From the NCBI RefSeq assembly GCF_007859915.1, contig NZ_SJPM01000002.1, forward strand, positions 871,919 through 935,918: DNA of 64,000 bases, read 5' to 3'. The stretch comes from Neorhodopirellula pilleata. Its GTDB lineage: Bacteria > Planctomycetota > Planctomycetia > Pirellulales > Pirellulaceae. How positions within the stretch are numbered: position 1 is the stretch's first letter; each line of letters starts with the position of its first letter. The translations under genes and the position numbers were made by a program. Under the pieces are notes generated by a model that was given only the letters and a program-made list of their open reading frames with translations, searched no databases and was not told the DNA's origin. Below are positions 34,890 to 48,125 of the stretch, piece after piece.

Positions 34890-37394
34890 ATGTCTGACGC
34901 CACGTCCCCAACCGAACGATCCGCATCGACAGATCCGCTGGCTGAAAACCAGCAGATTCTGCTGCGTTCAGCTCGAACTCCCGCCGGGGACGGCGGAAGG
35001 CGTGAGAAGGTTCCCTCGCCTTTGCCTGATCTGGTGGCGACCCAGGACTTCACGCCGACGGTCGATCAAACTGATACCGACGCCAATTTGTCTCAGTCGT
35101 CGACTGATACTTCGCTCGATAAACAAGTTTCGGACCTAGCGTTCGCCGCCGCATTGGTCCGCAGCGGCAAGGTCAAAGAACGACAACTCGAACGCGCGGT
35201 CAAAGATTGGACCGTGTTCGGCAATCAGTCGCTGGCCGAGCAACTCGTCCGCAATGGCATCTTGACCGAGGAAGAGATCTCGCACTGGCAAGCCGAGGCG
35301 CGGAAGCTCAAAGATTCGGTGAACCAATCGGTTGCCGAGGATCCGCGATCGCAATCCATGTCTTTGGGCGGCAGCCAAATGCTCCGGATCGACGGAAGCG
35401 GTCGTTTAGCCAAGCTACTCGGCTTGGGGCACAGCTCGGAGCCGAAATCTGACGACAACGAACGGGGGCTCATTACCCGGTTCAGTCTTGTGCGAAAAAT
35501 CGGTGAAGGCGGTTTGGGAACCGTCTGGCTCGCCCGAGATGAAAACCTTCGCCGCTACGTCGCGATCAAGGAGATTCGAAATCAAAACGACCGGGTCAGC
35601 GCAAGCACACTGGCCCGATTCCGCCGCGAAGCCGAGGTCACCGGACGATTAGAGCATCCCGGCATCGTTCCCATCTATGAGTTCGGCACCGACATCCAGA
35701 CGGGCCGGTTTTTCTATGTGATGCGTTTCATGGGTAAACAAACCATGCAAAACGCGATCAGTGAGTACCACGAGCTACGCGAGACCGGCAACGACGACCC
35801 GCTGATTCTGCATCGCTTAATTAGCGCGTTTGTGGAACTTTGTAACTCGGTCGCGTACGCTCACTCCAAACAGGTTATTCATCGTGATTTGAAACCCGAG
35901 AACGTTGCGCTGGATAGCTTCGGCCAAGTGATCTTGCTCGACTGGGGGCTGGCCAAGATCAACGACGATACGGGAGCCGCCGAAGCGGCCTTTGAAATCG
36001 GTGACGATGAAATCGCATCATCGAATTTGACCCTGGCAAGTCAAGTATTGGGTTCGCCGATGTACATGGCGCCCGAACAGGCATCCGGGCACATCGAACT
36101 GATCGACGAACGCACCGATGTTTACGGTTTGGGAGGCATTCTGTTCGCCATTCTGACCGGCCAATCGCCTCACGAGCCGTCGCACGATAGTTCGGTCAAT
36201 GTGACCTTCAGTGAGCTATTGACGGAGATCGTCAGCGGCAAGGTCGTCCACGCCAAAGAAGTGGTTCCGACGGTTCCTCCCGAACTCGACGCGATCTGCT
36301 TTCGTGCTCTTCAGAAGAAAAGATGCCTGCGATATCCATCGGCTTCCGCGCTCGCCGAAGACTTAGAGCGTTACATGGCCGGACGTAAAGTTTCGGCTTA
36401 CAAGGAACCTTCCCGTCGCAAAGTTAGTCGGTGGGTTAGCGAACATCCGAAATGGTCTCAGTTCATCGGCGTCGCGTCGGTCGTTTTGATCCTAGTGATT
36501 TTTATTTCAACATATCTGGTGCGGCAAAACCAAAAAGCTGCGATGTCGCATCGCTTCCAACAAGCCGCCGACGTCGTCAAGGAACTCGCTTTTCACATGC
36601 AAGCCCAAGCCGAGGACGGAATCAAAGACGCTCGGTTTTTGGCCAGTTTGCCCGCCGTGCAACAGATCATCGAGGGGGCTCATGATTCGCCCCCGACGGC
36701 CGCCACGGAATCGATTGATGCTTCGAACCGCTCGGAGATGCAAAATCGTTTTGCATCCATCGCGGAAGCACTACTGCATCGCAACCAATCGTACCACTCG
36801 ATCGAAATGATCGCATTTGCCCGTGACCAAGCCAAACAGATCACACGAGTGGAACGCAATGTGGGAACCGGGCTGGTTCGCCGTGTTCCCGAGGCGCTTC
36901 TTTCATCGTTCACGATCGACGAACAAAATGCCACCATGGCGTCATTGATGCCGGGTGACGTGCTGTTGAACACCAGTGACAAGACCGTTCAGGGAGTCGA
37001 CGCCGAATACAACGATTCGCTCGCTCTCACAGTCACGACTTCGGTATACGATCAAAGAAACGATGTCGCGTTCGGGCTGCTTGTCATCCAACTTGACCTC
37101 CGTGGTTTGATGCGAGACCGGATCGAATCGACTCGACGTGACGGCGTGAATGTTTACATTGCCGATGGAAACGGTTTGATTCAAATGGTTCTCTCGGAAG
37201 GTGTGTTTCGTTCGCACTACCACGGCAAACCGATCGCCACGTTGGCTCCCGATGCCTCTCGCATTTTCGGCGGTACGACGTTCGAAACCAGCTACTCTGA
37301 TGAAACATCTTTGTACGCCAAACGCGTACGATTGGGCGAGCGAATTTCCAAGTCCAGCGCCGATGTCGGCGTCGTTGTCCAGGTACACAATTAG
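34890..37394 (+). CDS. Transmembrane Ser/Thr protein kinase with C-terminal sensor domain
   Basis: 834 aa. A disordered N-terminus precedes a short helical region with AALVRSGKVKERQLERAVKD and LVRNGILTEEEISHWQAE. The Hanks-type kinase at about 205-500 has the Gly loop GEGGLGTVWLA, Lys227 in VAIKE, catalytic HRDLKPEN (Asp333), DWG in place of DFG (351-353) and an APEQASG activation segment. One membrane helix at about 524-546 (FIGVASVVLILVIFISTYLV) leads to an extracytoplasmic ~285-residue domain with Cache-like features (FGLLVIQLDLRGLM, GVNVYIADGNG). The kinase is predicted inside and the sensor outside. Its stop overlaps the convergent lipid-kinase stop. Confidence 0.93.
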   Translation: MSDATSPTERSASTDPLAENQQILLRSARTPAGDGGRREKVPSPLPDLVATQDFTPTVDQTDTDANLSQSSTDTSLDKQVSDLAFAAALVRSGKVKERQLERAVKDWTVFGNQSLAEQLVRNGILTEEEISHWQAEARKLKDSVNQSVAEDPRSQSMSLGGSQMLRIDGSGRLAKLLGLGHSSEPKSDDNERGLITRFSLVRKIGEGGLGTVWLARDENLRRYVAIKEIRNQNDRVSASTLARFRREAEVTGRLEHPGIVPIYEFGTDIQTGRFFYVMRFMGKQTMQNAISEYHELRETGNDDPLILHRLISAFVELCNSVAYAHSKQVIHRDLKPENVALDSFGQVILLDWGLAKINDDTGAAEAAFEIGDDEIASSNLTLASQVLGSPMYMAPEQASGHIELIDERTDVYGLGGILFAILTGQSPHEPSHDSSVNVTFSELLTEIVSGKVVHAKEVVPTVPPELDAICFRALQKKRCLRYPSASALAEDLERYMAGRKVSAYKEPSRRKVSRWVSEHPKWSQFIGVASVVLILVIFISTYLVRQNQKAAMSHRFQQAADVVKELAFHMQAQAEDGIKDARFLASLPAVQQIIEGAHDSPPTAATESIDASNRSEMQNRFASIAEALLHRNQSYHSIEMIAFARDQAKQITRVERNVGTGLVRRVPEALLSSFTIDEQNATMASLMPGDVLLNTSDKTVQGVDAEYNDSLALTVTTSVYDQRNDVAFGLLVIQLDLRGLMRDRIESTRRDGVNVYIADGNGLIQMVLSEGVFRSHYHGKPIATLAPDASRIFGGTTFETSYSDETSLYAKRVRLGERISKSSADVGVVVQVHN

Positions 37395-38317
37395 TCCCCA
37401 TCGCGTCGGATAGATCCGTCGCGTCCGACGTACATGGCGATAGCGGCTGGTTCGATGCAAAAGCGAATCGGTTCTTCGTCGACAATCTCGCCATCCATCG
37501 TGAATCTCATCGGGGGCGAGGACTGCAACTCCACGCATTTTGCCTGACGATAGATCACTTGATCGCATTGCTCGAAGGAACCGGACAAATTCCCGGCGAC
37601 AATTTCTACCATATCCATCACGTTGCCGTCCTTAATCAAAACAACATCCAATAAACCATCGTCGGTTGATGCCAAAGGGGCAACCTCGATGCGTCCCGCA
37701 TTGGTTCGGCCGTTCGCAATGAGGATCGCCCAACTATCCATTTCTATTTGATCACCGTCGATGTCAATCCGCACGCGGTAGCTGTTCATGTCCGCAAGTA
37801 CCGAAATCGCGCCACGGACGTAACTCAGCGCACCCCAACGTTGCTTGATCTCGTCTGTCATCTCTTCGGAGACGCGGACGCAATTTCCTCCGGCGGCGAC
37901 GTTGGCGAACCATCGTTGATAGTTTTCCGCAAACACCTTTACCACGTCCATGCGAATCGGCTCGCTGTGACGCATTTCGGCGACGGCGAGATTGATCTCG
38001 TCAGAGATTCCGAGTGTTCCGGCGAAATCGTTGGCGGTTCCAAGCGGGATGACCGCAAGATTCGGTCGGGAGGCAATGTCGATTTTCATCATCGCGTTAA
38101 CGACCGCATTAACGGTGCCGTCTCCTCCGGCGGCGATGACGGTTTGGCATTCGCTCGCGGCGATGCATTGATGCAGGTCGACGTCACGCTGCATCTCGGT
38201 CCATCGAGTCGGCACGTCCACGAGCAATCGACGCAACTGCTCGATCTGTAAGGATTTTCCGGAACCACCGTTCCAAATGACGTGATATTGCATGACTATG
38301 ACTCGATCAACTTTCAT
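37391..38317 (-). CDS. Diacylglycerol-kinase-family lipid kinase (YegS/DgkB-like)
   Basis: 308 aa. The nucleotide-binding signature GGDGTVN is at residues 64-70, followed by the family stretch LAVIPLGTANDFAGTLGI. The C-terminal beta-rich half contains ANVAAGGNCVRV and LASTDDGLLDVVLI, ending with a segment like FTMDGEIVDEEP. The family phosphorylates diacylglycerol or related lipids; some members act on sphingoid or glycolipids. The ATG at 38317 overlaps the stop of the branching enzyme gene (ATGA), so it is the last gene of the five-gene operon. ATG at residue 9 (MQYHVIWN) is an alternative start that begins closer to the catalytic fold. Confidence 0.92.
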   Translation of the reverse strand: MKVDRVIVMQYHVIWNGGSGKSLQIEQLRRLLVDVPTRWTEMQRDVDLHQCIAASECQTVIAAGGDGTVNAVVNAMMKIDIASRPNLAVIPLGTANDFAGTLGISDEINLAVAEMRHSEPIRMDVVKVFAENYQRWFANVAAGGNCVRVSEEMTDEIKQRWGALSYVRGAISVLADMNSYRVRIDIDGDQIEMDSWAILIANGRTNAGRIEVAPLASTDDGLLDVVLIKDGNVMDMVEIVAGNLSGSFEQCDQVIYRQAKCVELQSSPPMRFTMDGEIVDEEPIRFCIEPAAIAMYVGRDGSIRRDGD

Positions 38318-40146
38318 TCATTTGGATCTTGGGAATAGATCAGCGCGGTGTACGGCGGTATTTCGACGCGTCCGCGATAAGGATGCCCGTCGTAGGCTTG
38401 GTCGATGGACTCAATGTCGCCGCTCGCATTCCCGCCGAAATCGTCGCTGAAGATTTTGCGATCACTACTGAATCGTCGTCTCCATGTTCCTGGTGACGGC
38501 AAACCGAATTCGTATTGCCCGTAGTGCTGATTCGCAAAATTAATCACCACGACGGTTTCATCGCCCAAACCGCCGTCGCGCCGACGGATGAAAGCAATCA
38601 CCTTGTTTGATTGATTGACATGATGAATGTCAATGTGTTGTCCGGTGAGTCCTCGCGTGTTGCCGTCACGATTGAGTCGCAAGCGGATCAACCTCGACGT
38701 CAGTTTCACAATCCCCGCGTGCTCATCGCTTTTATCCCAGTCAAGCGACTCGGCATCTTGGAACCAACCATCCTCCAAAAACTCTTGGCCTTGAAACAGC
38801 ATCGGGATCCCTGGGGCGGTCAAAGTCAGCGCCAGTCCGATCGTCGCGCGTTTTTGGGCATACCAGTTGTCCGGTTCGGATTCATCGACCTCGCTGGGCA
38901 CTCGTGACTTTCCGTTGGCAACCTCGTCATGTGATTCGGTGTAGACGATTCGTTGAAACGCATCGCCGTTGTAGCGATGTCGTAGCGCATTGCAGACTTG
39001 ATTCATGTCGCGGTGTCGATCGTCACTTTGTGTAATGACATCACGGATGGGGTGAACGAATCGGGCATCCCACTGCGTAGCGAATCCAGCGCCGCCTTCG
39101 TCATTCGACTTCGTAAGGTAGGCGTTGTTCTGCAGGTCTTCGGCGATTGTGATGGCGGAAGGTTTGAACGCGTGGATCTCGCCGTTGATCCACTGTGTCA
39201 GGCTCCATCCTTCGGGAATATCTTGCGTTCCACTGGCATCAATACTTCGAATGTAGAGTGTCATGTCATAGCGTAGTCCATCGACATGGTAGTCTTCCAA
39301 CCACATCATCGCGTTGTCACGGATGTAGGCTCGCACTTCGCCTCGCCCGTAGTCCGGTCGTGTGTCACCCCAGGGAGTGCTAGATCGATGGTCGTTGTAG
39401 AAGTAGATTCCGCCTTTATCGTTCTCGCTCCAACCGTCGAACTGCCATAAATCTAGGTCGCTTGGCCCAAAATGGTTGTAGACCACGTCGAGAATGATCG
39501 CGAACCCGGCTTGATGAGCCTCTCGAACAAAGTGTTTGAAACCGACCGGACCACCGTAGGCTGATTCGATTGCGAACGGATGAGCTGGGTTATACCCCCA
39601 GGAATAATCGCCTGCGAACTCTGCGATCGGCATGATTTGAAGTGCATTGACGCCAAGCTTTTGTAAGTGTTCGAACTTCTTGGTGAAGTCTTCGAAGGTG
39701 CCTACCGAGTCCTTGTTGGAGCGGAAGAACGTACCGATGTGCGCTTCGTAGATGACCAGTTCGTTCCACGGAGGCATTGTGAAATGGTCCCCTTGCCATT
39801 CAAAATTAGGATCATGAACGACTCCGTTTCCGACGCTGTTGGTGACCTCCCGTGCTCGGGGATCGATTCGCTGGAATTTCTTGTCGCCATATCGAACCTC
39901 GTACTTGTAGTGATCTCCCGGCCTGGCGTTCTCGACGATCGAAAACCAGCAACCGTTGTCCTCACGCTGCAACGAATGGTCGTCTGAGTTCCAACCGTTG
40001 AAGTCACCGACCACTGCAACATGGTTCGCGTGGGGTGCCCAAACGCGGAAAGCAACGCCACGGTCGAGAGGAATTGCACCCATTCCTTCAACGAATTGGT
40101 CCGTCGAATATGCCTCCCGATGCGCGGGCGTGACGATATGGTTCAT
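38314..40146 (-). CDS. GH13-family 1,4-alpha-glucan branching enzyme-like protein
   Basis: 610 aa. An N-terminal CBM48 domain (GVAFRVWAPHANHVAVVGDF, FNGWN) is followed by a (beta/alpha)8 barrel with conserved regions DVVYNH at 220-225, the nucleophile in GLRYDMT (Asp294), the acid in IAEDLQ (Glu336) and SHDE (His406, Asp407). A C-terminal beta domain follows. The combination fits glycogen branching enzyme of the shorter type or a maltooligosyl-trehalose trehalohydrolase relative; I favour branching enzyme on YEAHIGTF and the region around YTESHDEV. No glycogen synthase or phosphorylase lies nearby. It follows the transglutaminase gene by 54 bases and overlaps the lipid kinase gene. Confidence 0.87.
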   Translation of the reverse strand: MNHIVTPAHREAYSTDQFVEGMGAIPLDRGVAFRVWAPHANHVAVVGDFNGWNSDDHSLQREDNGCWFSIVENARPGDHYKYEVRYGDKKFQRIDPRAREVTNSVGNGVVHDPNFEWQGDHFTMPPWNELVIYEAHIGTFFRSNKDSVGTFEDFTKKFEHLQKLGVNALQIMPIAEFAGDYSWGYNPAHPFAIESAYGGPVGFKHFVREAHQAGFAIILDVVYNHFGPSDLDLWQFDGWSENDKGGIYFYNDHRSSTPWGDTRPDYGRGEVRAYIRDNAMMWLEDYHVDGLRYDMTLYIRSIDASGTQDIPEGWSLTQWINGEIHAFKPSAITIAEDLQNNAYLTKSNDEGGAGFATQWDARFVHPIRDVITQSDDRHRDMNQVCNALRHRYNGDAFQRIVYTESHDEVANGKSRVPSEVDESEPDNWYAQKRATIGLALTLTAPGIPMLFQGQEFLEDGWFQDAESLDWDKSDEHAGIVKLTSRLIRLRLNRDGNTRGLTGQHIDIHHVNQSNKVIAFIRRRDGGLGDETVVVINFANQHYGQYEFGLPSPGTWRRRFSSDRKIFSDDFGGNASGDIESIDQAYDGHPYRGRVEIPPYTALIYSQDPNE

Positions 40147-40200
40147 GGGAAAGTTCCTTGAGGTTAGCTTTGATCAAAAAGTAAAAAAATCCCAAACGGC

Positions 40201-41043
40201 TCATACGGAGCTGACAGCGGTTTGAACGTTGTCGGGATCAAGCAGGTGGTCGTCGGCCTGTTGCTCATCGGCCCAGACCTCTAGGTTCGTGCTCTGAGCG
40301 TCGCCTCGGATGGTTGCGAAGGCGACATCGGCGGCATCACGACCGGTTCCGATTCGAACAAAACCGCCGACGGGAGCCAGACGTGTGGCGTCAAACAAGT
40401 ACCAACGTCCACCCAGATAAGCTTCGAAGAATCCATGGAAATCAGGCGGTTGCAGATTGACCGCGTATCCCGAAACGTATCGAGCCGGTATACCCATCGC
40501 GCGGCATAAACTAATGGCAACGTGGGCGTAGTCTCGACATACGCCCGTTCGCTGCAACAACACGTCGCAGGCCGTCGTCGTCGGGCCGGTACTGCCGGGA
40601 GTGTACGTTAAATGCTCGAACGTCCAATTGCAGATCGCCGTGACTCTTGAATAACCCGGCAATAAACTGCCAAACTCTTCACCGGCGAATCGAAACAACT
40701 TATCCGATTCGCAGTACCGACTCGGGTTGAGGTAGGCCAGTGCATCTGCAGGAAGATCTTCGTACTCGCTCTCCATGACGTTTGCTGAGTCGACTTCGTC
40801 TGCGTGCAACTGAACCGTCGCCTGATACTGAATCGTTAACTCGCCTGGTAGTGCATTGATCCGCACCAAACGATTGCCAAGGGGACCGACCGCACACTCC
40901 TCAATTTTGTGAAAAGGTTCGATTTCGATCGACTCATGTGAGGTGGACTGATGGTCGTTTTGAGCCACTGAGATATTGAGCAATAGCGTGGTGGGTGACT
41001 GTACGAAGTATTGCAAACGGCTGCCGACTTGGATCTGGTTCAT
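40201..41043 (-). CDS. Transglutaminase-like cysteine protease-fold protein
   Basis: 280 aa. A beta-rich N-terminal domain (the bacterial transglutaminase N-terminal region) is followed by the core with catalytic Cys169 in RTGVCRDYAH, His203 in PDFHGFFEAY and Asp218 in WYLFDATR. No signal peptide is seen, so it is likely cytoplasmic. Such proteins often occur beside circularly permuted ATP-grasp and alpha-E proteins in peptide-modification loci; neither is present in this window. It lies 9 bases after the metallopeptidase gene and 54 bases before the branching enzyme gene. Confidence 0.92.
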   Translation of the reverse strand: MNQIQVGSRLQYFVQSPTTLLLNISVAQNDHQSTSHESIEIEPFHKIEECAVGPLGNRLVRINALPGELTIQYQATVQLHADEVDSANVMESEYEDLPADALAYLNPSRYCESDKLFRFAGEEFGSLLPGYSRVTAICNWTFEHLTYTPGSTGPTTTACDVLLQRTGVCRDYAHVAISLCRAMGIPARYVSGYAVNLQPPDFHGFFEAYLGGRWYLFDATRLAPVGGFVRIGTGRDAADVAFATIRGDAQSTNLEVWADEQQADDHLLDPDNVQTAVSSV

Positions 41044-41052
41044 GGGAAAGAC

Positions 41053-42081
41053 TCATTGGGTTGGAAGTTGCCCATCGATTGAAAGGCTGCGTAAAGAGTG
41101 AACGTAGGAAAGTTTTTGAACGACCGACGGTGGAAGTCGTTCGGGCAGCAACGGGAGCAAACCGAGATCGAAGTTGTATTCGCTGACCTGGATCACGATG
41201 TCTAGAACCGACTTCACTAATTTGGCCGCATCGCTCACCGGCGACAAATCAAGATGTTGGCCTCCGATGTCGTTCGCCGTCGTAGCGATCGCCATGATGT
41301 CCAAGTACACATTGACAGTTTCAGCGAAATCCTCCCAGGGGTGCATCGTGGCGTAGGCGCTAACATGATTCTCGTGCCAATCCGCTGGTGCACCCCGTTC
41401 GTAGTGTTGCTTCATCGCTTGGGAGTAATCGACCTCGCCCGGATTGCCGAACAATCGATGGTACTCCTCTACCGCAACTTGACTGGCCCAGGCCCAATCG
41501 ATGTAGTGCCCGACCTCGTGTCGCATATGACCGATCAAGGTTCGTTGTGGTTCGCCGAATTGGACCCGCAAACGTTCGCGATGAACGCTGTCTGCTTCTG
41601 CCAGGTTGATCGTAATTAATCCGTTTTCATGACCGGTCGTGACCTTTTGCGGCTTTCCTTCGGCATCGACGGAATCCTCGAGAAATTCGAATCGCAGCCG
41701 ATGGGTTCGACGGGTATCCGCAATGAACGGCGGCAAACTCAGGTCCTCCAATTGCAGCAGCAGTCGTCGTTTGGCAGATTCCAAGGCACCCCAGCGGACC
41801 ACGCGATCGGGTTGACTCAGAGGCGGGATGACGTTGGTGAATTCACACCAACGACACAAGGTCTCCGCCGATTGATTAAATGAATGACAGACGCCATGCA
41901 TTTGATTCAAACATGGATATACGACGCTATGACAAGCATCACACCTTATGTCGGCTTCATCGGTCGTCAGACTCGTGAGAGAACCGCACACGGTGCAGCG
42001 GCCCAATCGAGCATGGCAAGAAAGGCATTCGTGGTTATTGAAAAAGATGCGGTTCCCGCATCGGCAGGTACCCGTTTTCAT
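41053..42081 (-). CDS. Zinc-ribbon metallopeptidase (Peptidase_Mx-like)
   Basis: 342 aa. The first ~85 residues form paired cysteine clusters: CRC, CLSC, CTVC, CDAC and CRWC, at least two zinc ribbons. A domain with the zinc-peptidase motif HEVGH at 188-192 follows (MRHEVGHYIDWAW), with a later WEDFAETVNVYLD stretch that could supply the third ligand, Glu. This matches a family of putative zinc-binding metallopeptidases (Peptidase_Mx) of unknown substrate. Its start overlaps the stop of the AI-2E-type gene (ATGA, 42078-42081), and the transglutaminase gene follows after 9 bases. Confidence 0.88.
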   Translation of the reverse strand: MKTGTCRCGNRIFFNNHECLSCHARLGRCTVCGSLTSLTTDEADIRCDACHSVVYPCLNQMHGVCHSFNQSAETLCRWCEFTNVIPPLSQPDRVVRWGALESAKRRLLLQLEDLSLPPFIADTRRTHRLRFEFLEDSVDAEGKPQKVTTGHENGLITINLAEADSVHRERLRVQFGEPQRTLIGHMRHEVGHYIDWAWASQVAVEEYHRLFGNPGEVDYSQAMKQHYERGAPADWHENHVSAYATMHPWEDFAETVNVYLDIMAIATTANDIGGQHLDLSPVSDAAKLVKSVLDIVIQVSEYNFDLGLLPLLPERLPPSVVQKLSYVHSLRSLSIDGQLPTQ

Positions 42082-44072
42082 ATTCGTAACGGCACATGTT
42101 CACGGGCAATTCTTTGTTGTTTCATAATCGAGTGAATTTTGGCTTGGGTTTGCGAGAAGGAGGTCGTCATGCTGGTTGCGCCGACCTTGCGAAACTTGAC
42201 AAATAACTGATCGAAGTGCTTAAACTTGCCCAAACACGAGACAACAATTGGCCCCGCATAGCCCATGCTGCGTAGCCGTTTGCATAAGTAACGTGATTGA
42301 GCGAATCCGCCCGGGGGTAAGACCACAATCACGACCATCGCCGGAGGCTCCGAAAGGACCTGCTGACCGATTTCTTCGGGAAGGGTTTCATCGTCAACCG
42401 ATTGAAGACGATAATTCTCGTCTTCATTGATGACGCCGGTTCCTCCCGTACGTAGCAAGTTTAAGACCAACATCTCACTGAAGTGATGTGAAGAACAGCC
42501 GACGATCAACGGCAACATGTCCGCACCGTCTTGGTTGATTTCTTGGTTGCCTTCTTGGTCGTCTTGTATAACTTCAGCCGCAGACTCGGTGATTTGCGGT
42601 TCGACGTCTTTTAGGAGGTGCTCACGCAGCTTGGCACTTTGACCACCGATCATTGCCAACAGTCGGTTGGCGTCGGCATCGGTAAGGTACTCGGCGTCGT
42701 GATCGGTTCGAACGCGTTTCAGCGTGGGGATGAGAACCTCGTCGCAAGTTTGCGCAAAATCGGATTGATCAGCGGTCTCACGAAGGAACTCCCAGGCGCG
42801 ATGTTCGTCGTTGGCTAAAAGCCGTTGATAAAACCGCATCGCCGTTCGGACTTCAATGGTCTCGGCAAAAAGGGTCGACAGAATTTTGAAGCGTGGCACA
42901 TAGCGGCCCAACACCACCAAGCAAACCGTCAGTGGTGTTGAGAGGAGCAACCCGACCGGCCCCCAAAGCCATCCCCAGAAGACGGCGGCGAGGATCACGG
43001 CGACGGCCGAGATCCCTGTGCTGGCACCATAAAGCCACGGCTCAAGTACGTTGTTGCTGAGTAGTTCCATCGTGATGATCAGACCGAACACCGCCAAGGC
43101 AACGCCGTAACCTGGAAAAACGGACAAAGCGATCGTAAGCGGAAACGCGGCTGCCGAAATGGGGCCGAGGTACGGAATGAATCGCAGACACGTTGCGAGC
43201 ACGCCCCACAAGATTGCATTGGGAAATCCTCCCGCTTGCGTCATTGCGGCGCCAATGGACATCAGACCGATAGTTAGCACGGCGCCATACGACGTGTTCA
43301 CGATCGTCTGTGCCATCAGGTAGCGGCTGATTCGGCCGGCCGCCTCATCGAGCGCTTCGGTCGTCGTGACGTAGTCACCGTGACTGACCACCGCGATGAT
43401 TCGGTCCCGCAGGTCTTCACGATGAATCAACATGAACAACGCGAACACGCTGACCAAGCCCGCCGTTGCGAACGGGCCCAAGATCGTACCGGCCGACGAC
43501 GCCCAGGAAGCGAGTGGCAAATCGTCTTTCACCACCTGAACATAAAGCGGACCACGGAGAGAGGTGCCGTCATTGGGCGAACGATCCTTGTCGGTATCAG
43601 CCGCCGGGAAGACTTGATCGGTGATCCGTTCGAAGAACGTCGGCTTTGGCTGATTGGTGATCTCCTTTTCAGCAACACTCTCCATCGCCTCCGTCATCTC
43701 GTCGGCGAGTTCGTCGAGCGATCCGCCGACACCGCTGGTCATTCCCGCAACACTTCGCGCTTTAGTGATCAATTCACCTTTATGCTGCGGCAGGTCGGCG
43801 ACCAGGCTGGTCAGTTCTCGACCAAGCAGAGTAAAGCCGCCAGCGAGAAGCAAGAATGCGAATGTCGCTGTCATCACAACCGCGGCGACATTCGGAATCC
43901 CCAAGCGGTGCAGACGATCGACGATCGGGCTGAGCAAAAATGACAGCAGTAGCCCAAGTGCAAGCGGAATGAATACATCGCGGGCGAGATAGAGCGAGAT
44001 GACCGTCAGGACAACCGCAAACCACTGCGCAACCCCCGCGATGGTCGCCAAATCAGATCTAGGTTTTGCCAT
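42078..44072 (-). CDS. AI-2E family transporter (PerM-like) with extra C-terminal alpha/beta domain
   Basis: 664 aa. The first ~390 residues are an AI-2E/PerM-type integral membrane region: IPLALGLLLSFLLSPIVDRL at the start, the family segments MAQTIVNTSYGAVLTIGLMS, LRFIPYLGPISAAAFPL and VLEPWLYGASTGISAVAVIL, ending GPVGLLLSTPLTVCLVVLGR. A soluble acidic helical stretch follows (about 400-530). Then a ~120-residue alternating beta/alpha region, with LIVGCSSHHFSEMLVLNLLR, VVIVVLPPGGFAQSRYL and GPIVVSCLGKF, looks like a Rossmann or B12-binding fold, without the DxHxxG cobalamin motif. Transport substrate unknown. First gene of the five-gene operon; the cupin gene lies 79 bases upstream on the same strand. 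Confidence 0.9.
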   Translation of the reverse strand: MAKPRSDLATIAGVAQWFAVVLTVISLYLARDVFIPLALGLLLSFLLSPIVDRLHRLGIPNVAAVVMTATFAFLLLAGGFTLLGRELTSLVADLPQHKGELITKARSVAGMTSGVGGSLDELADEMTEAMESVAEKEITNQPKPTFFERITDQVFPAADTDKDRSPNDGTSLRGPLYVQVVKDDLPLASWASSAGTILGPFATAGLVSVFALFMLIHREDLRDRIIAVVSHGDYVTTTEALDEAAGRISRYLMAQTIVNTSYGAVLTIGLMSIGAAMTQAGGFPNAILWGVLATCLRFIPYLGPISAAAFPLTIALSVFPGYGVALAVFGLIITMELLSNNVLEPWLYGASTGISAVAVILAAVFWGWLWGPVGLLLSTPLTVCLVVLGRYVPRFKILSTLFAETIEVRTAMRFYQRLLANDEHRAWEFLRETADQSDFAQTCDEVLIPTLKRVRTDHDAEYLTDADANRLLAMIGGQSAKLREHLLKDVEPQITESAAEVIQDDQEGNQEINQDGADMLPLIVGCSSHHFSEMLVLNLLRTGGTGVINEDENYRLQSVDDETLPEEIGQQVLSEPPAMVVIVVLPPGGFAQSRYLCKRLRSMGYAGPIVVSCLGKFKHFDQLFVKFRKVGATSMTTSFSQTQAKIHSIMKQQRIAREHVPLRI

Positions 44073-44151
44073 TCAAGGGAACAAAAGAGGGGAAACAAAG
44101 CACTGGAAAGATCCCAGGAAGCCCCGAGAATCGACGAGTCGAGGATTGGCT

Positions 44152-44490
44152 CTAAGCAACTGCGCCATCTCGATTGCCGAACCGCGCCGGCGGGGCGGTT
44201 GCTTCGATAACGACCACCGGTTCGAGAACGCGGTATCGATGATCGGCACCTTCGGGAACCAACCAGGAATCCCCACTGGAGAGCTTGGCAGTTTGCCCAT
44301 CGAGCTCCAGTTCCAACACTCCGCTAACGAGATAACCAACGGTTTCGTAATCACGGGCATGAATCGGTTCAAAGTCGCAGACGTTCTCGACCCATCGCCG
44401 CAGTGAGACCTGCTTTCCGGTGGCTAGGTACTCCTGTCCCATCTCTCCCCTCGAGGCTCCGCTTTGGGAAGTAATCTGAGGAATGTCCAT
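44152..44490 (-). CDS. Small cupin-domain protein
   Basis: 112 aa from ATG 44490, with AGGA about 8 bases upstream; the frame extends further but without coding character. It is a single cupin: HARDYETVGYLVSGVLELEL and LSSGDSWLVPEGADHRYRVL match the two conserved motifs. Metal ligands: His in IHARDYETVGY and in GADHRY are possible; the usual HxH pair of motif 1 is not present. It could bind a small ligand or act as a regulator. It is 79 bases upstream of the five-gene operon and divergent from the small membrane protein/KaiC operon. Confidence 0.8.
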   Translation of the reverse strand: MDIPQITSQSGASRGEMGQEYLATGKQVSLRRWVENVCDFEPIHARDYETVGYLVSGVLELELDGQTAKLSSGDSWLVPEGADHRYRVLEPVVVIEATAPPARFGNRDGAVA

Positions 44491-44733
44491 CGTGTCGTCC
44501 TTCGTTGCTGATGTTTTGATTGTTTCGTCGGCGGAAGTCCATAGCCGGGCGATGCGGCATTGCAACTGGGCAATTGTCGTGCCGCAATGCGATACGCCGC
44601 ACCGATTGTATGCACGATCGCGTTTTCGGCACGTCGATTGCTTACCCCTGCCATGCGTTTTAAAACTCGGGCGGTGGATTGAGGCGATCGGCGTGCATCG
44701 CGATCCCTGCCAATCCCCTCTGAAAGCGAACCG
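44491..44733. other. Divergent intergenic region between cupin and KaiC operons
   Basis: 243 bases that must hold the promoters of both directions. No clear sigma-70 pair, hairpin or repeat was noticed. The arrangement suggests shared regulation of the two operons, which cannot be confirmed from sequence alone. Confidence 0.4.
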
Positions 44734-44949
44734 ATGCGTGCTGTTGTCGTGATTCTGGTAATCCTCCTCATTCTCGGGCTGGTAGGTTGGATTCAATTCG
44801 GTTCACCCAATGGTGACCCTGGAATCCGCATCGATACCGAGAAAGTCGAGCAGGACACCTCCGAGATGGTTGAACAATCCAAGCGAGTCATTGGAGACAC
44901 GGCCGAGAAAATAGATGAAAGCATTCAGCGAGAGACGATCACGGAGTAA
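44734..44949 (+). CDS. Small single-span membrane protein upstream of KaiC
   Basis: 71 aa. One N-terminal membrane helix (VVVILVILLILGLVGWIQF) is followed by a charged helical tail (DTEKVEQDTSEMVEQSKRVI). A GAAAG lies shortly before the ATG. It ends 9 bases before the KaiC gene and is on the same strand, so it is likely the first gene of that operon. It could be a membrane anchor or sensor for it, which is inference. No named family recognised. Confidence 0.75.
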   Translation: MRAVVVILVILLILGLVGWIQFGSPNGDPGIRIDTEKVEQDTSEMVEQSKRVIGDTAEKIDESIQRETITE

Positions 44950-44958
44950 GGAACCGTA

Positions 44959-46479
44959 ATGCCTCGAATCACTCGACAAATTAGCACCGGCATTCCTGCC
45001 CTCGATGACGTGATGAACGGTGGCTTTACGGCGGATCGTCTGTCTCTCGTCGAAGGCTATCCCGGCACGGGGAAAACAACCTTGGCTTTGCAATTCCTGC
45101 TTGACGGAGCCAAAGCTGGAGAGCGTGGCTTGTATGTCACGCTGTCCGAAACGCGAGATGAGTTGCAAGAGATTGCTGCTTCGCACGGTTGGTCGCTTGA
45201 CGGCATCGATATTCATGAACTTGTCGATCAAGAAGATCTGCATCAGAAACAGGCGCAGTACACCATGTTTGAACCGGCCGAGGTGGAGTTGGGCACTACC
45301 ATTGACCGAATTCTGCGACGCGTGGAAACGCTCGGCCCACGTCGCGTCGTGTTTGACTCCTTGTCCGAGATGAGGTTGCTGGCCCAAGGGCCGCTCCGAT
45401 ATCGGCGGCAGGTGCTTGCGTTGAAACAGTTCTTTGTCGGTCGTGGTTGCACGACGCTATTGCTTGATGACAAATCCGGTGACGACCTGCACGACGATAA
45501 CGATCAACATCTGCAAAGTATCGCTCATGGTGTCATTCGACTCGAACAAGAACTGAATCACTACGGAACAGAGCGACGTCACTTGCGAATCATCAAACAC
45601 CGCGGCCGAGATTTTTTAGGTGGTCGCCATGATCTCGTGCTCCAGCAAGGTGGAATGAAGGTCTATCCGCGCAAGACGATTGAGTCGCTGATCTCCCAAC
45701 CGACCGGCGAAACCGTTAGCAGCGGGAACGCAGAGTTAGACAAGCTAATCGGCGGGGGAATTCTTTCGGGAACCAGCACGTTGTTACTGGGTCCCGCCGG
45801 CGTCGGAAAATCGTCGACCGCGATGCAATTCTCTTGTGCCGCGGCCGATCGGGGAGAACGCGCGGTGTTCTTTGAATTCGAAGAAAGCCAGCACTCGATG
45901 TTGACCCGAGGCGATGGTTTGGGTTTTCCCATGCGTAAACATCTTGAATCCGGATTGATCGAGATCCGCCAGTTTGTTCCGGGAGAAACGACGCCGGCGG
46001 AATTCGGCGCGAAGGTACGTGAATCCATCCAACCCGACGATCAAGGACGTCGTGTTTCGGTCATCACGATCGACAGTTTGAACGGCTATCTCAATTCGAT
46101 GCCTCACGAACAGTATCTCGTTATCCAGCTCAACGACATCTTGCAAAGCCTTAATCGATCAGGTGTCATCTCTTTCTTGATCGCGGCGCAGCACGGAATG
46201 ATGGGACAATTGGTAAGGACACCCGTGGATGCGAGCTACTTAGCCGACAATGTCTTGTTGTTTCGTTACTTTGAAACGTTCGGCGAGATCCGGCAAGCAA
46301 TTTCCATGGTAAAGAAACGCAGCGGTGCTCACGAACGAACAATCCGTGAATTCAATCTTAGCGATCGCGGAATCGAGATCGGCAACCCGCTGCGAGATTT
46401 CCATGGCGTGTTGACCGGCACGCCGAAGTACACCGGCGACGGTGAAAACTTGATCGATCGCCGAGGAGACGGTCGGTGA
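44959..46479 (+). CDS. KaiC-like double-domain RecA-family ATPase
   Basis: 506 aa with two KaiC domains. CI: P-loop GYPGTGKTT (Lys39), YVTLSETRDE, Walker B VVFDSLSEM. CII: P-loop GPAGVGKSS (Lys284), FFEFEESQHSM with the catalytic Glu pair, Walker B ITIDSLNGY. The Ser-Thr phosphorylation pair of cyanobacterial KaiC is not visible after the CII Walker B, so clock function is not implied. KaiC proteins outside cyanobacteria act in stress or signalling, often paired with histidine kinases. The next gene overlaps the stop (GTGA), so translation is coupled. Confidence 0.94.
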   Translation: MPRITRQISTGIPALDDVMNGGFTADRLSLVEGYPGTGKTTLALQFLLDGAKAGERGLYVTLSETRDELQEIAASHGWSLDGIDIHELVDQEDLHQKQAQYTMFEPAEVELGTTIDRILRRVETLGPRRVVFDSLSEMRLLAQGPLRYRRQVLALKQFFVGRGCTTLLLDDKSGDDLHDDNDQHLQSIAHGVIRLEQELNHYGTERRHLRIIKHRGRDFLGGRHDLVLQQGGMKVYPRKTIESLISQPTGETVSSGNAELDKLIGGGILSGTSTLLLGPAGVGKSSTAMQFSCAAADRGERAVFFEFEESQHSMLTRGDGLGFPMRKHLESGLIEIRQFVPGETTPAEFGAKVRESIQPDDQGRRVSVITIDSLNGYLNSMPHEQYLVIQLNDILQSLNRSGVISFLIAAQHGMMGQLVRTPVDASYLADNVLLFRYFETFGEIRQAISMVKKRSGAHERTIREFNLSDRGIEIGNPLRDFHGVLTGTPKYTGDGENLIDRRGDGR

Positions 46480-48125
46480 GTTCAGCCACCACCATCTTGG
46501 ACGATTGCAACGATCCCGACAGCCATCGTGTGACGATCCTCGCGCCTACGCCTCATGACGCTGAAGTTTGTCGTAAAATTCTGCATGAAGAGAATGTTGC
46601 CGCCGAGTTTGTCTCGTCCATGCACAGCCTCGTCGCGCGAATTCGACAGGGAGCCGGCGTCGTCTTGATCGCTCAGGAGTTCTTGACCGGTGAATCACTC
46701 GAGTATCTTCGGATGGCGATGAGGTCGCAACCGTCATGGTCGGATGTTCCCATCGTTATTCTGCTCAACAGCCGGGAAAGCTCGTCGGAACAAATCGCGG
46801 ACTGGCTGTCACTCGGTCATGTCACGCTGCTAGAACGTCCGCTGCGGATCGCCCTGTTCGTCAGCACATTGCGATCGAAGATGCGAGATCGTGAACGACA
46901 GTATGCGGTTCGCGAATTGTTACGACGCGCCGAAGAAGCGAACCGATCCAAGAGTGCGTTCTTGGCCAACATGTCACATGAGATCCGAACGCCGATGACC
47001 GCGATCCTCGGATATGCGGATCTGATGGAGGGTTTAATCGAAAACGAAGAAGCCATCGGTTACCTCAAAACGATCCGTCGCAACGGTGATTTTTTGCTCG
47101 CGATTATTAATGACATTTTGGATTTATCAAAGATCGAAGCGGGCAAGCTTGCCATCTCGAGCGAACCGTTCTCGCTGGTTGCCTTGCTCGACGACGTCAG
47201 CAGTATCTTGTCCGTCCGAGCGTCCGAGCGAGGCATCGATCTCATACTGGACTACCAAACGCCGATCCCCAAGTCGATCAAGAGTGATCCCAAACGACTC
47301 AAACAAATTCTCGTCAATTTGATCGGCAACGGCATTAAGTTCACTCCACAAGGCAGCGTATCGGTGACGGTTGACTACCAGACCGAATCGTCGTCTGCGG
47401 GCCGAGTTCGCAACGACAACGCTACGGGAACACTGCGCTTTCGCATTCGCGACACCGGCATCGGAATGAGCCGCGAACAACAACGTCGCTTGTTCAAGCC
47501 CTTTTCTCAAGGCGATGAAAGAGTCAATCGCCAATACGGGGGAACCGGATTGGGGCTGGCGATCAGTCGTCGTTTGGCGAATATGCTCGGTGGCGACATC
47601 GAAGTCGAAAGCGTCGAAGGGCAATTCAGTCAGTTCACTTTCTCGATCGCGACAACCGAGGTGGTACCCAGTTCCGCGAACCAGTCGCAACCATCCAATG
47701 GTTTGCCCAACGCCAATAGCCTTGATGACGAAGTTCGAATCGAAGGTCGGTTTTTGGTCGTTGACGATCGACGAGATATTCGCTTTCTATCCAAACGCTT
47801 TTTATCGTCGGCGGGCGCGACGGTGGAAGAAGCCGAAGACGGGCGAGCCGCCGTCGACTGGGTGCGGCAAGCCATGGTCGAGCGACGTGAACCGCGACTG
47901 ATTCTCTTGGACATGCAGATGCCACGCATGGACGGATACCAAGCCGCCCGAGAACTCCGGCGGATGGGGTTTGCCGGTCCGATCATCGCACTGACCGCAG
48001 ACGCCATGCAAGGCGATATGACAAAGTGTCTCCGGGCAGGTTGCAACGACTATCTGTCCAAGCCGATCGACAAGTCCGCGATGCTCCGCAAAGTATCCGA
48101 TTTGTTGTTGGAATCGTCGACGTAA
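46476..48125 (+). CDS. Hybrid histidine kinase with N-terminal pseudo-receiver
   Basis: 549 aa from GTG 46476, which overlaps the KaiC stop. Residues ~1-130 look like a receiver fold, with VTILAPTPHDAEVCRKIL and VPIVILLNSRESSSEQ, but the phospho-acceptor position lies in VVLIAQEFL with no Asp, so it is probably inactive. A linker helix leads to HisKA (MSHEIRTPMTAILGY, His168) and HATPase (NLIGNGIKFTPQG, RDTGIGMS, GGTGLGLAIS). A C-terminal receiver follows, with Asp479 in LILLDMQMPRMDGYQAA and Lys in DYLSKPID. No membrane helix, so cytoplasmic. It most likely signals with the KaiC partner. No separate response regulator is next to it. Confidence 0.94.
   Translation: MSSATTILDDCNDPDSHRVTILAPTPHDAEVCRKILHEENVAAEFVSSMHSLVARIRQGAGVVLIAQEFLTGESLEYLRMAMRSQPSWSDVPIVILLNSRESSSEQIADWLSLGHVTLLERPLRIALFVSTLRSKMRDRERQYAVRELLRRAEEANRSKSAFLANMSHEIRTPMTAILGYADLMEGLIENEEAIGYLKTIRRNGDFLLAIINDILDLSKIEAGKLAISSEPFSLVALLDDVSSILSVRASERGIDLILDYQTPIPKSIKSDPKRLKQILVNLIGNGIKFTPQGSVSVTVDYQTESSSAGRVRNDNATGTLRFRIRDTGIGMSREQQRRLFKPFSQGDERVNRQYGGTGLGLAISRRLANMLGGDIEVESVEGQFSQFTFSIATTEVVPSSANQSQPSNGLPNANSLDDEVRIEGRFLVVDDRRDIRFLSKRFLSSAGATVEEAEDGRAAVDWVRQAMVERREPRLILLDMQMPRMDGYQAARELRRMGFAGPIIALTADAMQGDMTKCLRAGCNDYLSKPIDKSAMLRKVSDLLLESST

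Follow-up and report, generated by a model that had tools for sequence, protein, structure and literature searches.

In a 64,000-nucleotide stretch of the Neorhodopirellula pilleata genome (contig NZ_SJPM01000002.1, positions 871919-935918; this whole stretch is called the window, and positions below are counted from its first letter), a run of chemically unrelated genes is probably organized as a six-gene sigma-54 operon, encoding in order a cupin, an AI-2E protein with a B12-type domain, a Peptidase_Mx metallopeptidase, a transglutaminase, a GH13 enzyme and a YegS-type lipid kinase, and transcribed from a site at 44584-44569 that stands back to back with a second promoter, for a gene encoding a 71-amino-acid (71-aa) membrane protein. 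On this reading the genes would represent cargo of an RpoN stress regulon of the Rhodopirellula group, and would be joined by their regulation and not by a pathway. The gene content and its spacing, the promoter-like sites with their conservation and excess, the presence of rpoN and of its activators, and the predicted fold of the AI-2E tail were all computed here, and the features on which the argument depends are as follows.

44734-44949, plus strand: 71-aa membrane protein, partner across the divergent promoter pair (conserved in relatives)
44627-44642, plus strand: sigma-54 (-24/-12) type site CGGCACGTCGATTGCT, pointing away from the operon, score 15, 91 base pairs (bp) before the 71-aa gene
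44569-44584, minus strand: sigma-54 type site CGGCACGACAATTGCC, score 14, 78 bp before the cupin ATG
44152-44490, minus strand: cupin-domain protein, 112 aa, proposed first operon gene (PF07883, E 2.8e-10)
42078-44072, minus strand: AI-2E family transporter, long form, 664 aa (PF01594, E 3.1e-40)
41053-42081, minus strand: Peptidase_Mx putative zinc metallopeptidase with zinc ribbon (PF15887, 258.5 bits versus 27 bits; PF10005)
40201-41043, minus strand: transglutaminase-like protein (PF01841, PF21295; solved relative 3isr, E 6e-70)
38314-40146, minus strand: GH13 enzyme with CBM48, GlgB/TreZ-like (PF02922, PF00128 and PF02806)
37391-38317, minus strand: YegS/Rv2252/BmrU-family lipid kinase (PF00781 and PF19279; TIGR00147, 174.7 bits, above the curated NCBIfam cut-off of 118.65)

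By the coordinates of the open reading frames (ORFs), the five genes from the transporter to the lipid kinase are joined by two ATGA overlaps (42078-42081 and 38314-38317) and by gaps of 9 bp (41044-41052) and 54 bp (40147-40200). A preliminary description of the locus had reported this same-strand arrangement, had linked the genes into one unit, and had noted that no single pathway uses all five, and in each of these respects it is confirmed. Its functional names agree with Pfam for all five proteins; the metallopeptidase belongs to the expected Pfam family and carries an HExxH motif, read in its sequence as HEVGH, and a search for its solved relatives returned none at E 0.1. The name ‘glucan branching’ is the part that did not stand, since the GH13 protein falls below the curated cut-off of the best NCBIfam branching model (NF008967, 310.1 versus 577 bits) and, among the matches listed (25 of 34), under the cut-off of every family. 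It has the CBM48, GH13 and C-terminal domains of the GlgB architecture as defined by Pfam, its solved relatives are GlgB first and TreZ next, and GlgB models rank best and TreZ third among the NCBIfam matches listed; ‘glucan branching’ is thus just a best guess for a putative GlgB/TreZ-like reaction.

The unit had been drawn as 37391-44072, and is larger than that. A cupin gene on the same strand ends 79 bp upstream of the AI-2E gene, and relatives of this cupin with 62-66% identity occur at long-form AI-2E loci of four other genomes, directly upstream and on the same strand in three of the four (L065, L070 and L072; L, G and C numbers are our handles for loci, genomes and contigs) and divergent in the fourth (L068), so that the unit probably starts one gene earlier, at the cupin. 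Within the 243 bp that separate the cupin from the 71-aa gene lie two sigma-54-type sites that point apart. They were located with a weighted -24/-12 pattern, TGGCACG-N4-TTGCW, for which sites are counted at a score of at least 14 unless stated otherwise; the motif came from a de novo dyad screen of the same sequences, in which the fragment TGGC.CGAGA prompted the sigma-54 test and the remaining matches were mostly put down to orthologs. The -24/-12 element GG-N10-GC is present before the first gene, at 44584-44569 on the minus strand (score 14), and this site is proposed as the operon promoter on the strength of its sequence match; the site on the plus strand is one of only 13 strict matches in the genome. 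None of 300 dinucleotide shuffles of the 243-bp region equalled the pair of sites on both strands. The preliminary description was accurate for the genes that it named; four features escaped it, namely the promoter pair, the cupin and the divergent 71-aa gene on either side of that pair, and the B12-type domain of the transporter.

The same divergent arrangement is found in relatives. A search of 24 genomes with the 71-aa protein, for whose window copy Pfam returned nothing at E 1, yielded 18 matches, of which 15 were strong and three weak ones (G023, G037 and G049) were excluded from the counts. Within the 300 bp before the 15 strong copies, sites scoring at least 13 point toward the gene in 14 cases and toward the opposite gene in 11, compared with 0-3 and 2-5 of the 15, respectively, when the spacer is set to a wrong length; at a score of at least 14 the corresponding counts are 8/15 and 7/15, against 0-2/15 and 0/15 for wrong spacers. 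In one further case (G008), a site scoring 15 that points toward the AI-2E gene overlaps the start of the 71-aa gene. The arrangement of the site pair was followed at nine loci (the window and eight others), at which the partner is either the long form of AI-2E, alone or behind a cupin (the window, G001, G003, G008 and G009), or a GH13 gene (G002, G004, G005 and G011). A site of at least 13 points toward the 71-aa gene at all nine and toward the neighbour at eight, the ninth scoring 12; at one locus (L123) the scan reached 250 bp beyond the gap, into the GH13 ORF as called. Between 0 and 7 of 300 dinucleotide shuffles per locus matched the weaker site of the pair on both strands. Further partners are a GH13 gene in G010 and a PP2C phosphatase gene in G025; two of the 15 strong copies lie near contig starts, and two are second copies without a recognised partner.

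The divergent unit is kept while its cargo varies, being an AI-2E protein, a GH13 enzyme or a PP2C phosphatase. No description of it was found in the open-licence literature consulted, in which one search was aimed at it specifically. We tentatively raise the possibility that it is a conserved regulatory unit of the Rhodopirellula group, made of the 71-aa membrane protein and back-to-back sigma-54 promoters, whose effector has been exchanged between species; sigma-54 might then occupy the role played elsewhere by sigma-B or EcfG, the AI-2E/B12-type protein might be a membrane sensor-transporter and the 71-aa protein its constant partner, and the window might display the unit after it had gathered five regulon genes behind one promoter.

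The excess of such sites extends to the families of the operon (‘module genes’) at other loci. At the level of single genes, for which the families were transglutaminase, Peptidase_Mx, the long and one short AI-2E, GH13, proteasome-type and EcsC, sites were found before 24 of 82 module genes and before 52 of 611 other genes of the same loci, and before 3 of 135 genes in 20 evenly spaced 20-kb regions (G002 and G004); wrong spacers of 2, 3, 5 or 6 left 0-1 of the 82. Among transcription units, taken from 16 genomes and with the lipid kinase replacing EcsC among the families, a site preceded 17/68 units with module genes and 4/163 units in 20 regions chosen at even spacing (Fisher p 4e-7). With wrong spacers the counts were 0/68 for module units and 1-3/163 in the evenly spaced regions, which, set against their 4/163 with the proper spacer, means that those regions have hardly any excess of their own. 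The spacing control is a stronger argument than the p-values, which overstate independence because many of the sequences are orthologs.

The genome, of 8.5 Mb, also contains the machinery that a sigma-54 operon presupposes: one rpoN (a single PF04552 match) and a set of enhancer-binding proteins, with 16 strong PF00158 matches and 4 weak ones, the weak ones meaning little since such matches occur in 14/14 control genomes. Nine of the 13 strict sites have a gene downstream, these being genes for GroES, a ferritin-like protein (Dps-like by our reading), a SOUL protein, an MscS-type channel, the 71-aa protein, an NMT1-like protein, a COX2-domain protein, a histidine kinase and a methyltransferase-like protein; four are without a convincing gene. 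In the accessible part of one survey of Planctomycetia, sigma-54 enrichment is described for MscS channels, chaperones and universal stress proteins (PMC12316311), and the shared response of Rhodopirellula baltica to heat, cold and salt includes, in the sections available, Dps RB4433, PNPOx RB4438 and SOUL RB13222 (PMC2754498); the same sections describe regulation in those array experiments as global, not operon-based. The preliminary description had guessed at a stress module of the cell envelope or of storage granules, a guess that draws some support from the sigma-54 sites heading this and related units, these being matches to a pattern, and from the presence of CsbD, PNPOx-like, PRC-barrel, EcsC and ferritin-like genes at related loci or behind other strict sites.

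Several observations weigh against a shared sigma-54 regulon. The weights and the threshold of the pattern were chosen by us, and were set while the scored sequences were in view, and the overlap of orthologs noted above inflates the p-values. Of the units with module genes, 51/68 have no site of at least 14, and nine stand-alone transglutaminase units reach only 10-11. The window unit itself scored 11, and hence negative, in the automatic unit-level test, because the ORF caller had omitted the cupin; with the cupin as first gene it scores 14. Even so, the operon site has C for T at its first position and ends in TTGCC. Lowering the threshold to 13 lets some sites with wrong spacers appear near the 71-aa gene too, with single or double matches in five of the nine loci. 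Across the genome the 13 strict sites compare with 8 for a reversed control pattern, a small excess. Although a cognate enhancer-binding protein is commonly, and not necessarily, encoded near a sigma-54 operon, none of the 20 PF00158 places lies inside the window. Finally, rpoN of R. baltica is lowered by high salt and is unregulated by heat, according to the available sections of PMC2754498, and the gene set as a whole, considered next, has little conservation.

That conservation was followed in 60 genomes, the genome itself and 59 relatives, with transglutaminase, GH13 and lipid kinase searched in 24 of the 60. Peptidase_Mx matches occur in 27/60 and matches to the long AI-2E protein in 42/60, and all five genes stand together in 0/59 relatives, contig breaks aside and with GH13 taken among the matches listed. 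The best 80 of 585 named long AI-2E loci, some of them with short flanks, likewise lack the full set, and profile scans of them found Peptidase_Mx at 1, transglutaminase at 3, GH13 at 3 and the lipid kinase at 0; beyond the Rhodopirellula group, such neighbours are rare beside the long AI-2E gene. A conserved five-gene pathway was rejected on these counts. What recurs are parts of the set, in about six distinct arrangements by our count, among which orthologous loci are not independent. The long AI-2E gene is found with a receiver and GH13 (G003, G009, G012 and G023; loci L065, L068, L070 and L072), and with a receiver, transglutaminase and a proteasome-type gene (G002 and G010; L066 and L067), and a distant paralog of it lies 2-5 kb from transglutaminase in this genome (G000, contig C16), in G003 and in G025. 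Apart from the window, Peptidase_Mx was found by these searches immediately next to an AI-2E gene in three genomes only, G004, G007 and G011 (L084, L085 and L087), where the latter is a short and different paralog and where, in L084 and L085, the two genes overlap by 4 bp; in G000 (L092) and G003 (L091), 4-5 kb separate a second-type Peptidase_Mx copy from another AI-2E gene. Peptidase_Mx is also paired with transglutaminase (G025, L086) and with a receiver (G006 and G008; L088 and L089). Other neighbours at related loci include CsbD, PRC-barrel, EcsC, PNPOx-like and APP1-type phosphatidate phosphatase genes, together with CHASE3 hybrid kinases and sigma-54 activators.

The lipid kinase makes a weak candidate for a core gene of the module, given that its ortholog adjoins a PAP2-type gene at 4/8 relative loci (L126, L128, L130 and L131; Pfam was run on the L126 copy only), and the two form an ordinary lipid-turnover pair. 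A second island in the same genome (L079, G000:C16) holds a transglutaminase, a proteasome-type protease, a long AI-2E paralog, a CHASE3 hybrid kinase, a receiver, a ferritin-like gene and several sigma-54 sites.

The preliminary description had proposed that scattering of the five genes in relatives would reduce their clustering to local chance. The genes are indeed scattered, and a conserved set of five finds no support; the conclusion of local chance does not follow, since the same genes come together again elsewhere in twos and threes. The clustering goes beyond chance, not as a fixed five, and instead as recurring partial clusters with a shared promoter type. A rearrangement that brought the genes together behind one promoter reading through all of them, with no shared regulation, would explain why the set occurs in no relative and why each gene is found elsewhere in most genomes examined, and is nevertheless unlikely, since the families return as pairs and triples in other arrangements, share one promoter type and, at two of the loci with a short AI-2E gene and a peptidase, repeat the 4-bp overlap. 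A stress operon under a sigma-70 or extracytoplasmic function (ECF) sigma factor, with coincidental sigma-54 sites, appears decidedly unlikely: the sites do have moderate scores, and ECF factors are stressed for the stress responses of R. baltica in the accessible text of PMC2754498, but the sigma-54 sites are specific in their spacing, the region 36800-45100 contains 2 sigma-70-like matches, both on the plus strand, against a shuffle mean of 4.8, and an EcfG-type motif (GGAAC-N15-19-CGTT), tried as a candidate, was unenriched (1/79 versus 7/578).

The combination of transglutaminase and zinc peptidase also recalls the peptide-modification loci in which Anbu, alpha-E and ATP-grasp proteins are found, and a variant of these would accord with the proteasome-type gene that adjoins transglutaminase in relatives (L066, L067, L108 and L115-L117) and with the Anbu operons containing transglutaminase, ATP-grasp and alpha-E that are on record in the available portion of PMC5666114; ‘Anbu’ is a putative name for the proteasome-type gene, taken from the Pfam Proteasome match and that paper. 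We regard such a variant as very improbable, since window positions 24001-58000 contain no proteasome-type gene, both alpha-E copies of the genome are on contig C41 (the preliminary description was right that this partner is absent from the locus), and neither the GH13 enzyme nor the lipid kinase fits into such a system. No ATP-grasp family was found among the 19 window ORFs scanned, a scan that included no dedicated ATP-grasp search.

Were the six genes to form a sigma-54 operon, a stress signal would reach one of the enhancer-binding proteins of the genome, which would open both divergent promoters. The AI-2E protein with its B12-type domain may then act in membrane transport and sensing, the peptidase and transglutaminase on damaged or tagged protein, the GH13 enzyme in glucan or compatible-solute metabolism, and the YegS-type kinase in membrane lipid turnover, all of the products acting in parallel; related species would arrange the same regulon cargo in other combinations. 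Use of the sites, stress as the signal and the acting activator are proposals, and each biochemical role is a putative one, taken from family membership.

The C-terminal tail of the AI-2E protein is predicted to adopt a recognizable fold.

42081-42881, minus strand: AI-2E tail, aa 398-664, predicted B12-binding/SCHIC-type fold (AlphaFold2 model, mean per-residue confidence, pLDDT, 89.5)

The model has a four-helix part and a Rossmann-like part. Its Foldseek match is 8jbt (E 6.2e-7), and VIA comparison aligned it with the SCHIC domain of AppA (4heh, Z 19.1, root-mean-square deviation 3.1 over 198 residues), with photocobilins (Z about 18), with MetH (1bmt, 17.2) and with CarH (about 15); receiver domains reached Z of about 14 over the Rossmann part alone. 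With both helix bundle and Rossmann part in place, the protein, as modelled, ends in a B12-binding/SCHIC-type fold. By sequence, the Pfam search for a B12-binding profile gave 0 families at E 0.01 on the window tail, a phmmer search with the tail found nothing convincing, and PF02310 matched 20/44 members of its family. The DxHxxG cobalt-ligand motif is present in 1/44 members, and the window protein has SSHHFS at the equivalent loop; in one aligned column, counted by eye, Arg occurs in 25/44 relatives and His in the window and 9 others, and this column would correspond to H177 of CarH. Among longer AI-2E relatives from other genomes, seven were scanned (L153, L156, L168, L171, L175, L176 and L178); behind a linker, the terminal domain is GAF in six of them and SpoIIE in the seventh, four of the seven also having a B12-binding match, which suggests a wider family of AI-2E signalling proteins. 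In the accessible text of PMC7221264 and PMC9134010, members of the AI-2E family are reported as AI-2 exporters or Na+/H+ antiporters. The fusion class is already known, because PMC11796333 reports, in the part available, HaAI-2E, composed of AI-2E, a cobalamin-binding domain and a diguanylate cyclase domain, the second of which bound hydroxocobalamin and not adenosyl- or methylcobalamin.

On the other side of the promoter pair, two further genes follow the 71-aa gene.

44959-46479, plus strand: KaiC-like ATPase, 9 bp after the 71-aa gene (PF06745)
46476-48125, plus strand: hybrid histidine kinase, its first 4 bp shared with the KaiC gene (Pfam and ORF coordinates)

KaiC was rejected as a fixed member of the divergent unit, as 9/9 orthologs in relatives have no site of at least 13 in the 600 bp upstream (one paralog, L270 in G007, has a site scoring 14), and for this reason the plus-strand site at 44627-44642 probably serves the 71-aa gene. 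The placement of KaiC and the kinase behind that gene is probably an arrangement of this genome only, and the genes are possibly co-transcribed. Elsewhere in the window, three near-identical copies of GGGGACGKGCGTTGCA lie within 1.2 kb on the minus strand (30439, 30878 and 31603) and form a small family of repeats with sigma-54-like scores.

Inside the operon, an identity of 15 bases covers the start codons of both the transglutaminase and the GH13 gene; it may mark a recombination joint or act as a translation signal common to the two.

41028-41049 and 40131-40152, minus strand: segments containing the shared identity CTTTCCCATGAACCA (read in sequence)

At the far end, the last 4 bp of the lipid kinase gene (37391-37394) are shared with the 3' end of a convergent Ser/Thr kinase gene (34890-37394), which leaves no room for a terminator between the two. 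A hairpin and T-run noticed by eye in the 54-bp gap after the transglutaminase gene was unreported by the terminator scanner and, in the two cuts that were folded, did not surpass shuffled sequence (z -1.35 and +1.21), and was dropped as evidence; the scanner gave five terminator-like matches, below the shuffle mean of 9.5.

The organization of the general stress response in planctomycetes is poorly known, and a divergent sigma-54 unit in which a small membrane protein stays constant while the effectors are exchanged offers a concrete target for mutation. A shared switch would also explain the co-location of chemically unrelated genes, and cautions against the reading of such clusters as pathways. 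In the general stress regulons of sigma-B and EcfG, a single stress sigma factor controls a mixture of genes for envelope, storage and protein quality; the cargo here is similarly mixed, but the proposed sigma factor is of another class and no EcfG-like motif is enriched. Closer to hand is the sigma-54 regulon of Planctomycetia (PMC12316311, which cites Studholme and Dixon 2004). As described in the available part of PMC12316311, that regulon has sites before GroES and an MscS-type channel, both of which also follow strict sites here; PMC12316311 makes no mention of AI-2E, KaiC, transglutaminase or ‘glycogen branching’, and the divergent 71-aa unit with its changing cargo is not met in its accessible sections. 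The Anbu operons, as far as the accessible text of PMC5666114 describes them, share the transglutaminase family with the window and, in relatives, its proximity to a proteasome-type gene, and differ in that the window locus lacks alpha-E and proteasome-type genes and has other companions. HaAI-2E, in the portion of PMC11796333 at hand, carries an extra diguanylate cyclase domain that is missing from the window protein, which stops behind its B12-type domain; the cobalt-ligand position of HaAI-2E is Arg, where the window has His in the putatively equivalent column. The two proteins have in common the order of an AI-2E domain followed by a B12-type domain, and this published fusion of AI-2E and cobalamin domains now gains a proposed regulatory setting.

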